Assembly (NCBI RefSeq): GCF_003628145.1
Contig: NZ_RBZV01000015.1
Span: forward strand, 1 to 64,000
Source of the DNA: Trinickia fusca
GTDB lineage: Bacteria > Pseudomonadota > Gammaproteobacteria > Burkholderiales > Burkholderiaceae
Length of the DNA: 64,000 nt
Direction: 5' to 3'
The notes beneath the pieces were generated by a model. It made no database searches. It was not told where the DNA came from and saw only the letters and a program-made list of their open reading frames with translations. Both the position numbers and the translations under genes were made by a program. Positions 9,779 to 12,321 of this stretch are shown here, one piece after another. Numbering within the stretch: the stretch's first letter is position 1; each line of letters begins with the position of its first letter.

Positions 9779-10531
9779 ATGACGGCCGCCCCCCACGTAT
9801 TCGAGGCGCCGCGCTTCGCGCAATTTCGCTTGAAAGCCGCCGTCATCGACCTCGACGGTACGATGGTCGACACGGCCGACGACTTCACGGCAAGCATCAA
9901 CGGCATGCTTGCGCGACTGGGCGAGCGGCCGGCGACACGCGACGAGGTGATCGGCTATGTCGGCAAGGGCTCGGAGCATCTCGTGCGCAGCGTGCTCGCC
10001 GCGCGTTTCTCTTCCGACGAAGCGCAAGCGCACTACGACGAAGCGCTCGCCGCCTACCAAGCCGAATACGCCAGCATCAACGGCCGTCATACGCAGCTCT
10101 ATCCCGACGTCGAACCGGGCCTTGCGGCCCTGCGCGACGCGGGTCTCGGGCTCGCGTGCGTCACGAACAAGCCGCATCGCTTCGCTTGTGCGCTACTTGA
10201 ACAGTACGGGCTCGCCCGTTACTTCGCGCTCGTACTCGGTGGCGACAGCCTGCCGCGCAAGAAGCCCGATCCCCAGCCGATGCTGGCCGCCTGCGCTGCG
10301 CTCGGTGTCGCGCCGCATGAGGCCGTGGCAATCGGCGACTCGGAGAACGACGCGCTGGCCGGGCGCGCGGCCGGCATGGCGACGCTGACCGTGCCATATG
10401 GGTACAACCATGGCAAAGCTATACAAACGATAAATTCGGATGGTATAGTCGGCACGTTGCTCGCAGCCGCCACGTGCATTACACGGCATCATGCGAGTCT
10501 CGAAGCAACATTCCAATCGCCGACTACTTAG
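9779..10531 (+). CDS. gph: Phosphoglycolate phosphatase
   Basis: HAD-superfamily hydrolase of 250 residues that dephosphorylates 2-phosphoglycolate. Motif I is VIDLDGTMVDT (about 21-31), motif II TNKPH, motif III the Lys in LPRKKPDPQP, and motif IV GDSENDALAG. It starts four bases after rpe. The last 20 or so residues extend past the usual end and run into the region just before the trp leader peptide, so the trp promoter may sit inside the 3' end of this gene. Confidence 0.92.
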   Translation: MTAAPHVFEAPRFAQFRLKAAVIDLDGTMVDTADDFTASINGMLARLGERPATRDEVIGYVGKGSEHLVRSVLAARFSSDEAQAHYDEALAAYQAEYASINGRHTQLYPDVEPGLAALRDAGLGLACVTNKPHRFACALLEQYGLARYFALVLGGDSLPRKKPDPQPMLAACAALGVAPHEAVAIGDSENDALAGRAAGMATLTVPYGYNHGKAIQTINSDGIVGTLLAAATCITRHHASLEATFQSPTT

Positions 10532-10539
10532 TCACCTTC

Positions 10540-10614
10540 ATGTTTCTGAACAAAAAACGGAGTCCGAGCAGTATCGACCGGGGAGCTTGGCCCTGGCGTC
10601 GCTCGTCGCGCTAA
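10540..10614 (+). CDS. trpL: Tryptophan operon leader peptide (TrpL-like, 24 residues)
   Basis: A 24-codon frame just before trpE translates to MFLNKKRSPSSIDRG followed by AWPWRRSSR and a stop. Two Trp codons at 10588-10590 and 10594-10596 are separated only by a Pro codon, which is very unlikely by chance in so short a frame. The stop falls at 10612-10614, in the 5' arm of the anti-terminator pairing, where ribosome stalling would be sensed. A terminator hairpin follows 14 bases later. I infer a classical Trp-responsive leader peptide. Confidence 0.75.
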   Translation: MFLNKKRSPSSIDRGAWPWRRSSR

Positions 10615-10631
10615 CCTCTCACGAGGTGCGC
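10608..10631 (+). promoter_or_regulatory. Predicted trp anti-terminator pairing
   Basis: GCGC (10608-10611) plus ACCTC (10614-10618) can pair with GAGGT (10623-10627) plus GCGC (10628-10631), with TA bulged and a 4-base loop. The 3' part shares 10628-10631 with the 5' arm of the terminator stem, so the two hairpins exclude each other. This is what an attenuator needs. The pairing is read by eye and not folded computationally. Confidence 0.6.
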
Positions 10632-10659
10632 TGGTACACCCTATCCAGCGCCGTTTTTT
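10628..10659 (+). terminator. trp attenuator terminator
   Basis: GCGCTGG (10628-10634) and CCAGCGC (10645-10651) form a 7-bp GC-rich stem around a 10-base loop, followed by CG and six T (10654-10659). It lies between the Trp-Pro-Trp leader peptide and trpE, about 170 bases before the trpE start. It is expected to stop transcription when tryptophan is plentiful. Confidence 0.8.
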
Positions 10660-10827
10660 GATTTCGCCGCGCATTCGCGCCACACTCGCCGCATCGACCG
10701 AACCGTCCACCGGATGACGTGACCATTGGGTCGCCCTCCGGGTTCGCGCTCATACGGCTTGCCGCACGCTTCGCTTCGCATTCGTCAGTCGATGGCCAAG
10801 CGCGCGACCACACGACAGGATCGGAAC
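10660..10827 (+). other. Untranslated leader between attenuator and trpE
   Basis: This 168-base stretch contains no convincing gene. The trpE frame is open through its second half from 10726, but that part has no ribosome site and no resemblance to the conserved trpE N-terminus. It is treated as 5' untranslated RNA. Confidence 0.5.
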
Positions 10828-12321
10828 ATGACCGAACTCGAATTCCAATCCCTCGCCAACGAGGGCTATAACCGCATTCCGTTGATCGCCGAAGCCCTGG
10901 CCGACCTCGAAACGCCGCTGTCCCTGTATCTGAAGCTCGCGCAGTCCGAGCGCAACGGCGCCAATTCGTTCCTGCTCGAGTCGGTCGTGGGCGGCGAGCG
11001 CTTCGGCCGCTATTCGTTCATCGGCCTGCCGGCGCGCACGCTCGTGCGCACCAAGGATGGCGTAACCGAAGTCGTGCGCGACGGGCAAGTCGTCGAGACG
11101 CACGAAGGTGATCCGTTCGATTTCATCGCGCAGTTCCAGGCGCGTTTCAAGGTCGCGCAGCGCGCCGGCCTGCCGCGCTTTTGCGGCGGTCTGGCCGGCT
11201 ACTTCGGCTACGACGCCGTGCGGTACATCGAGAAAAAGCTCGCCGACACGACGCCGCCCGACGACCTCGAACTGCCCGACATCCAGTTGATCCTGTCGGA
11301 AGAAGTCGCCGTCATCGACAATCTCGCCGGCAAGCTCTACCTGATCGTCTATGCCGATCCGGCGGTGCCCGAAGCGCACGCGCGCGCCAAGCAGCGACTG
11401 CGTGAACTGCGTCAGCGGTTGCGCACGACGGTGCAGCCGCCCGTGACCTCGCCGAGCGTGCGTACCGAGATCTATCGCGAATTCGCGCGCGACGACTATC
11501 TGAACGCGGTGCGCCGCGCAAAGGAATACATCGCAGCAGGCGAGTTCATGCAGATCCAGGTCGGTCAGCGTTTGATCAAACCGTATCGCGACAACCCGCT
11601 GTCGCTGTATCGGGCGCTGCGTTCGCTGAACCCGTCGCCGTACATGTACTACTACAACTTCGGCGAATTCCAGGTGGTCGGCGCGTCGCCTGAAATTCTC
11701 GTGCGCCAGGAAAAGCGCGGCGAGGATCGCATGGTGACGATCCGTCCGCTCGCCGGCACGCGTCCGCGCGGCAATACGCCCGAGCGCGACGCCGAACTGG
11801 CGACCGAGCTGCTGAACGATCCGAAGGAAATCGCCGAGCACGTGATGCTGATCGACCTCGCGCGCAACGATGTGGGCCGTATCGCGCAAACGGGCACGGT
11901 CGTCGTGACCGACAAGATGGTCATCGAAAAGTACTCGCACGTGCAGCACATCGTGAGCTCGGTCGAAGGCAAGCTCAAACCCGACATGACGAACTTCGAC
12001 GTGCTGCGCGCCACCTTCCCGGCCGGCACGCTCTCGGGTGCGCCGAAGGTGCGCGCAATGGAAATCATCGACGAACTCGAGCCCGTCAAACGCGGTCTTT
12101 ACGGCGGTGCCGTCGGGTACCTGTCGTTCACGGGCGAGATGGATCTGGCCATCGCGATCCGCACGGGACTCATTCATAACGGCAATCTGTATGTGCAGGC
12201 AGCGGCGGGCGTGGTCGCCGACTCGGTCCCCGAAGCCGAATGGCAGGAGACCGAAAACAAGGCGCGCGCGGTGCTGCGCGCGGCCGAGCAGGTGCAAGAC
12301 GGCCTCGACAGCGACTTCTGA
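10828..12321 (+). CDS. trpE: Anthranilate synthase component I
   Basis: Chorismate-using enzyme of 497 residues that, with TrpG, makes anthranilate in the first committed step of tryptophan synthesis. The N-terminal SFLLESVVGGERFGRYSF includes the LLES segment known to form the tryptophan feedback site. The catalytic domain shows QIQVGQRLIKPYR, the SPEILVR segment, TIRPLAGTRPRG, DLARNDVGRIA and FPAGTLSGAPKVRAMEII. The ATG at 10828 is chosen because family similarity begins there. TrpG starts 15 bases after the stop. Regulation should combine feedback inhibition with the attenuator upstream. Confidence 0.95.
   Translation: MTELEFQSLANEGYNRIPLIAEALADLETPLSLYLKLAQSERNGANSFLLESVVGGERFGRYSFIGLPARTLVRTKDGVTEVVRDGQVVETHEGDPFDFIAQFQARFKVAQRAGLPRFCGGLAGYFGYDAVRYIEKKLADTTPPDDLELPDIQLILSEEVAVIDNLAGKLYLIVYADPAVPEAHARAKQRLRELRQRLRTTVQPPVTSPSVRTEIYREFARDDYLNAVRRAKEYIAAGEFMQIQVGQRLIKPYRDNPLSLYRALRSLNPSPYMYYYNFGEFQVVGASPEILVRQEKRGEDRMVTIRPLAGTRPRGNTPERDAELATELLNDPKEIAEHVMLIDLARNDVGRIAQTGTVVVTDKMVIEKYSHVQHIVSSVEGKLKPDMTNFDVLRATFPAGTLSGAPKVRAMEIIDELEPVKRGLYGGAVGYLSFTGEMDLAIAIRTGLIHNGNLYVQAAAGVVADSVPEAEWQETENKARAVLRAAEQVQDGLDSDF

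Follow-up and report, generated by a model that had tools for sequence, protein, structure and literature searches.

A conserved Trp-codon leader upstream of trpEGDC in Trinickia fusca and a long-range RNA helix with a possible role in its attenuation

The leader locus and its relatives

The window analysed here, a stretch of 64,000 nucleotides of Trinickia fusca DNA, carries rpe, gph, a short leader, trpE, trpG, trpD and trpC in this order, the genes having been identified by profile. An earlier note on this DNA had proposed a Trp attenuator that consists of a 24-codon frame with two Trp codons one codon apart, a 7-bp GC stem and six T in front of trpEGDC, and each of these elements is indeed present. 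The promoter-like element, the leader and the first structural gene are located as follows.

10444..10449, + strand: TATAGT, an extended -10-like element (TG before) in the 3' end of gph; TATACA from 10420, spacer 18
10540..10614, + strand: trp leader open reading frame of 24 codons, MFLNKKRSPSSIDRGAWPWRRSSR and stop; ATG at 10540, TAA at 10612-10614; translation predicted
10828..12321, + strand: trpE, first gene of trpEGDC (TIGR00564, E 5.3e-164, above cut-off)

The Trp codons of the leader are codon 17 (10588-10590) and codon 19 (10594-10596), and the trpE start (10828) lies about 170 nt beyond the 7-bp hairpin and its six T. The TrpE protein of the window matches those of the named Trinickia loci at 91-94%, and a trpE tree puts the window among Trinickia. 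A TATAGT box recurs in every one of the 123 f1-set loci (one of them from f8), at most 250 nt in front of the leader, and transcription therefore probably begins some 80 nt ahead of the leader. In the printed rows of this set the box uses the Ile codon ATA, which makes up 3% of the Ile codons of six window genes.

The earlier note had suggested examining the Trp codons in relatives, and there they are kept. Among the closest 80 of 580 relatives a leader with W-P-W accompanies all 80 named loci (63 within 420 nt of trpE, 17 farther upstream) and no named locus lacks these codons; a DNA match is present in all 11 genomes of the genus, that of the window among them. All 121 scored f1 leaders have Trp at codon 17, as do 29 of the 38 from the second family, f49. 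Most relatives read WPWRRW, with a third Trp at codon 22 in 111 of the 121 scored f1 leaders, a codon which the earlier note had overlooked along with the hairpin-to-T-run gap and the long-range helix described below. Codon 22 is Ser in 8 of the 121, seven from the Trinickia clade and one from Paraburkholderia (L030), and it is Ser in the window too; apparently the sensor codon was lost on separate occasions.

Beyond these loci, 16 of 26 further trpE loci from 21 genera of the family are preceded by a W-rich leader (15 with AWPW, L135 with WRQW) and ten are not; in four of the leaderless loci (L130, L131, L142 and L143) trpE follows directly on the apparent end of rpe. In f49, where 55 genomes have a trpE locus, AWPW occurs at 28 of the 30 best-scoring loci and the other two read WLW or WSW. 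A search of a 399-genome sample of the order with the leader profile gave 26 matches, of which 13 lie beside trpE. All of these trpE-linked matches belong to f1 or f49, and the AWPW form is thus restricted to part of the order. The other 13 (L160, L161, L163-L173) have no trpE in the fetched stretch and were taken as chance.

Conservation is not confined to the Trp codons. The pattern MF.N.K....DR.AWPWR runs far past them in 14 diverse peptides of the family, and RGAWPWR is also present in most f49 leaders. The core moreover keeps rare codons, namely Arg CGG in 124 of 126 rows, Gly GGA in 94 of 126 (35 of 38 in f49) and Pro CCC in 124 of 126, while in six window genes CGG accounts for 7% of the Arg codons and GGA for 1% of the Gly codons. 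These 126 rows, like the 127 rows of the helix set, include four repeats of one place (L148-L151) and were not thinned for repeated strains, some of which occur twice, by name and by handle. Because rare synonymous codons are conserved across two families, the simplest reading is a constraint on the core at the nucleotide level, perhaps a pause hairpin (P1, below). An accidental origin of the leader is ruled out by the 80 of 80 loci, the f49 leaders and the conserved rare codons, and on these comparisons the predicted Trp-sensing leader is a real gene and an old one in the bacterial family.

A side observation concerns the f49 leaders. In the printed sequences of ten of them (L154-L159, L162, L204, L211, L213) the leader ATG is preceded at a distance of only about 6-10 nt by a -10-like box, TACACT, which suggests that the putative leader mRNA of this family is nearly leaderless.

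Local hairpins, the long-range helix P0 and its partners

Three local hairpins and a pair of distant strands can be recognised between the leader start and the end of the T-run.

10551..10560, + strand: 5' strand of helix P0, CAAAAAACGG, running from codon 4 (its third base) through codon 7 (covariation; minimum-energy fold)
10578..10596, + strand: P1, CCGGGG/CCCTGG hairpin over the conserved core with both Trp codons (99.8% of cells paired)
10614..10627, + strand: P2, hairpin of ACCTC with GAGGT at the leader stop, centre of a possible antiterminator (fold, structure counting)
10628..10651, + strand: P3, GCGCTGG (10628-10634) with CCAGCGC (10645-10651), 10-nt loop, T-run 2 nt away
10651..10660, + strand: 3' strand of helix P0, CCGTTTTTTG, which holds the six T of 10654-10659 (covariation)

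P1 is almost invariant and therefore does not permit a covariation test. The 4-pair helix of P2 is paired in 86% of cells, with changes on both sides in three of its four pairs, and the leader stop sits in the 5' arm of a possible larger hairpin, GCGC-TAA-CCTC with GAGG-T-GCGC (10608-10631). P3 is the GC stem of the earlier note, and covariation of this hairpin is borne out by both-side changes in five of six counted pairs, one of the six being mostly unpaired on that alignment. It is followed by CG and then by the T-run at 10654-10659. This gap of 2 nt in the window ranges from 2 to 10 nt with a median of 5 in 34 rows and is 0 in E. coli. Compared with dinucleotide shuffles the fold of 10530-10668 scores z -2.46 (3 of 200 as good) and that of 10590-10668 alone z -1.78 (11 of 200). 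A promoter and terminator scan of 10300-10900 reported no terminator (0.5 in shuffles), its loop limit being 8 and the loop of P3 10.

The minimum-energy fold of 10530-10668 also pairs CAAAAAACGG with CCGTTTTTTG around the inner hairpins, so that the start of the leader reading frame is joined to the T-run. The first C of the 3' strand doubles as the last base of P3. This helix, P0, abuts the T-run without a gap, whereas P3 stands 2-10 nt off. The two strands change together: AAT goes with a T-run followed by A, and AAC with a T-run followed by G. In 103 anchored rows leader base 12 and the base after the T-run are C-G in 34, T-A in 65, T-G in 2, T-C in 2 and C-A in none, two rows anchored at the wrong place (L140, L237) falling in the T-G and T-C counts; 20 of the 123 rows have no anchor, 19 for want of such a T-run and L174 because the pattern missed it. 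Mapped on the trpE tree there are 10 and 8 changes on the two sides of this pair, and independent pairs move in the same direction in six cases, in opposite directions in none and are unchanged in two (sign test p 0.031). Further compensation is seen in four rows with CAAGAAACGG/CCGTTTCTTG and, in a genus that lacks a T-run of this kind, in eight rows with GCAAACGC/GCGTTTGC. L137 carries a longer form of the latter pairing, and L140 forms a perfect helix of 13 bp, AATCGCAAGAAAC/GTTTCTTGCGATT.

Structure counting on 75 rows finds 96.9% of P0 cells paired and both-side changes in three of ten pairs, on an alignment where several Trinickia rows have the base after the T-run one column out of place, to the detriment of pair 12. 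When the partners are slid against each other the whole-structure score for these rows drops from 0.114 to at most 0.037. Native partners also pair better than permuted ones (z 5.5, 0 of 2000, for 28 representatives), and with 14 rows, one per genus, the result is again 0 of 2000; three other leader segments gave z 0.5, -0.2 and -1.9 against permuted partners in the 28 rows. RNAduplex with long loops did not single out P0, reaching p <=0.05 in 15 of 69 rows and z -0.32 in the window (74 of 200 shuffles as good). Its long-internal-loop scores are too permissive for the window's family, and gapless helices with permuted partners were used instead. Taken together, covariation and permutation strongly support P0 as a conserved RNA helix, whose role in control we infer. 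A pair of protein-binding sites in the DNA is an unlikely explanation, since the partner begins anywhere from 1 to 122 nt past the leader stop.

In three genera leader and P0 are kept in the absence of a T-run comparable to that of the window (g3: L134, L242, L243, L246-L251, L253; g25: L136, L252, L254-L259; g5: L137). P0 contains a single A-C mismatch in each of the ten g3 rows, and L242 also shows a compensated change from C-G to T-A; in these loci the conserved block stops just past the P0 partner, which adjoins the leader stop. Between leader and trpE, T-runs reach a length of 3 in the ten g3 rows and in g5, of 4 in seven of the eight g25 rows and of 5 in L257. A hairpin followed, after a gap of at most 2 nt, by eight bases of which five or more are T occurs in 1 of 10 g3 rows (L253), 0 of 8 g25 rows and 0 of 1 g5 row as against 9 of 12 controls with a T-run, and when the gap may extend to 10 nt these figures become 2 of 10, 8 of 8, 0 of 1 and 12 of 12. 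As g3, g25 and g5 keep P0 without a comparable T-run, P0 is not tied to termination everywhere. That termination in these genera is Rho-dependent is a guess.

Other families of the order also have a short leader upstream of trpE, often ending in WRWRR or similar. With the f8 and f49 rows and doubtful reading frames included, a candidate leader precedes trpE in 49 of 90 loci and none is found in 41. In the 49 rows complementarity between the leader start and the 40 nt in front of trpE is well above expectation (native 1005, permuted 756 with sd 22, z 11.1, 0 of 2000), and removing the other family class, the leaders far from trpE and the doubtful reading frames leaves 32 rows with z 10.9. Controls on the 49 rows gave z 1.5 for the spacer, 0.6 for an upstream stretch and 2.8 for the leader end (7 of 2000). 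Examples are L283, where GCCTCCTGTA of the leader pairs with TACAGGAGT before trpE, as well as L270 and L203. The pairing suggests that control in those families may be translational rather than transcriptional. Complementarity of this kind was noted in L181, L184-L186, L189-L191, L200, L203, L268, L270, L279, L283, L290, L320 and others. In L185, whose leader lies at -132 relative to trpE, leader start and pre-trpE region form a 26-bp gapless inverted repeat, the longest of the rows compared, which looks like a recent insertion or duplication. The same pairing is at chance level in the f1 set (z 1.2, 237 of 2000 as high, 28 rows) and in f49 (z 0.8), where scoring the leader start on everything downstream gives a borderline result (63 of 2000). 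With targets that differ by family, the same end of the leader therefore seems to have been re-aimed.

How the leader may report tryptophan

We read the locus as a Trp-codon attenuator of trpEGDC whose output structure takes one of its arms from the start of the leader reading frame, a reading that we rate slightly below an even chance. The textbook scheme is probably incomplete here because the leader start pairs with the terminator region. In an intrinsic terminator the T-run has to follow the stem almost immediately. Since it is P0 that is adjacent, we take P0 to complete the terminator and translating ribosomes to hold it open. With charged tRNA-Trp, ribosomes would clear the leader and leave codons 4-7 free, and P0 would nucleate on CGG/CCG beside the T-run and together with P3 release the transcript. 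When Trp is short a ribosome would stall at codons 17-22, and a second one, held up in a queue roughly ten codons upstream, on codons 4-8, would help it to keep P0 open so that polymerase continues into trpE. The GC-rich core round the Trp codons could act as a pause hairpin that times polymerase and ribosome. In the other families the leader end would act on the 40 nt before trpE and exert translational control with the same sign.

This proposal makes demands of its own. If the 5' edge of a ribosome at codon 17 is assumed to lie near nt 31, codons 4-7 are left uncovered, and the P0 model therefore needs either the queued ribosome or steric exclusion. CGG/CCG alone would be a weak closure. The gap after the hairpin is just 2 nt in the window, where the classical switch is visible, and this counts against the model. 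A role of P0 as antiterminator was set aside by reasoning, because the leader start is free both with a ribosome at codon 17 and after its departure and the sign would not follow Trp.

But would P0 form in time to decide anything? The T-run is inside polymerase while it is being made, and P0 may thus form only after the decision. In the first alternative, which we regard as rather unlikely, P2/P3 or pausing would decide, and P0 would close the leader start once the T-run has been made, so that the leader is translated no further and the terminated RNA is shielded at its 3' end. That the helix requires the T-run to be outside polymerase fits such a late role, as does its retention in genera without such a T-run, where the partner directly follows the leader stop. 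Codons 4-7 moreover lie within the footprint of an initiating ribosome, and the E. coli leader start is closed by distal leader RNA. However, a post-decision P0 leaves unexplained both the 2-10 nt between P3 and the T-run and the aiming of the same strand at the trpE start in other families.

A second alternative, also unlikely in our estimation, is an attenuator of the E. coli type, in which a stall at the Trp codons favours GCGCTAACCTC/GAGGTGCGC and so blocks the 5' arm of P3, and a ribosome at the stop codon prevents this. We calculated how far the 5' arm of P3 is sequestered while the 3' arm has yet to be transcribed, comparing a ribosome at W17 or W19 with one at the stop. The E. coli control passes (0.44/0.86 versus 0.09). 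The window gives 0.88 at W17, 0.86 at W19, 0.51 at the stop and 0.88 without ribosome, and L017 gives 0.73 and 0.64 versus 0.00. Sequestration falls by at least 0.25 from W17 to the stop in 9 of 34 rows, the window included (L002, L017, L028, L024, L021, L042, L076, L125, L139), and these nine span Trinickia, Burkholderia, Caballeronia and others; P2, too, covaries. The means over the 34 rows, on the other hand, are only 0.62/0.59 versus 0.53, and three rows (L088, L079, L065) rise by at least 0.25, the opposite of what such a switch would do. P2 and P3 furthermore coexist in the minimum-energy folds, and in some genera the letters of P2 do not pair. Equilibrium folding of transcripts that end before the T-run formed P3 in nearly all ribosome states; this test was discarded because the E. 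coli control behaved alike. Thus, of the scheme proposed in the earlier note, the Trp-codon leader, hairpin and T-run before trpEGDC stand, and its antiterminator is seen in the window and eight other rows and not in most of the 34. The Trp-attenuator interpretation is in this sense partly supported: it names the right kind of regulator but leaves the mechanism incomplete. In some species, that of the window among them, the classical switch may supplement control by P0.

A trans-acting leader peptide or terminated leader RNA, or ribosome arrest by the sequence RGAWPWR, on the pattern of peTrpL/rnTrpL of Sinorhizobium or TnaC, would account for the conserved MF.N.K....DR.AWPWR of 14 peptides and for RGAWPWR in most f49 leaders, but the conservation of rare synonymous codons as well points to the nucleotide level and makes this very improbable.

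Returning to the reading in which the leader start is an arm of the output structure, it can be extended to the order. We suggest, tentatively and with somewhat more doubt than hope, that the Burkholderiales (GTDB) have a widespread and perhaps ancestral class of amino-acid attenuators whose leaders are antisense at their 5' end to an output signal and in which ribosome occupancy or queueing, not a 2:3 antiterminator alone, reports Trp. The outputs of this class would be the T-run in the Burkholderia lineage, where the coding sequence would provide the 5' arm of the terminator helix, the pre-trpE region in many other families, and a site past the leader stop in g3, g25 and g5. In the genome of the window no match to the Trp repressor (PF01371) was found, the controls in E. 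coli and B. subtilis being positive, and the leader may therefore be the main Trp-specific control here. Attenuation of trp, one of the founding cases of regulation by RNA, is normally explained with the E. coli scheme. If the switch strand is the leader's own 5' end, this would represent a second solution to attenuation, coupled to ribosome queueing, and one leader gene would have been re-aimed between terminating transcription and concealing a translation start.

Comparison with known leaders and attenuators

The Rfam model RF00513 (Trp_leader) has no match at gathering score in the 64 kb and none at E <=5 in 10400-10850. In the parts of the literature consulted, Rfam Trp leaders are among the motifs listed in one paper (PMC3766115), TrpR regulons are described for gammaproteobacterial lineages (PMC5343134), and the open-licence texts seen contain no description of a trp leader of Burkholderia, Ralstonia or Bordetella and no trace of P0. 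An earlier prediction of the leader itself is possible.

In its layout the locus resembles the trpL attenuator of E. coli, as it combines a short reading frame with clustered Trp codons, a hairpin and a T-run before trpE, and trp genes downstream. It differs in that P0 joins codons 4-7 to the T-run, in that P3 is set off from the T-run, in that the 5' arm of P3 changes with the stall in just 9 of 34 rows, and in the arrangement of the Trp codons, which are W-P-W(-R-R-W) at 17/19/22 here and an adjacent WW at 10/11 in E. coli.

In some intrinsic terminators an A-tract extends the stem into the U-tract. The A-tract of the leader is similarly complementary to the U-tract, but here it lies about 90 nt upstream, within coding sequence, and three possible hairpins stand between the two. 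In translational attenuators such as the erm leaders, a ribosome on the leader frame frees a downstream ribosome-binding site. These resemble the arrangement in the other families, where the leader start faces the 40 nt before trpE, and are unlike the window's family, whose leader start targets the T-run region and pairs with the pre-trpE region at chance (z 1.2).

The trpL (rnTrpL, peTrpL) of Sinorhizobium meliloti is, like the present one, a Trp leader of trpE(G), and according to the parts of its description that we consulted (PMC7298713) attenuation there releases a small leader RNA that starts at the trpL ATG; those parts do not mention a pairing like P0, and the peptide is unrelated to the leader peptide here. 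The leader RNA of f49, with TACACT a few nt before the ATG, may likewise start at the ATG, as does S. meliloti trpL.
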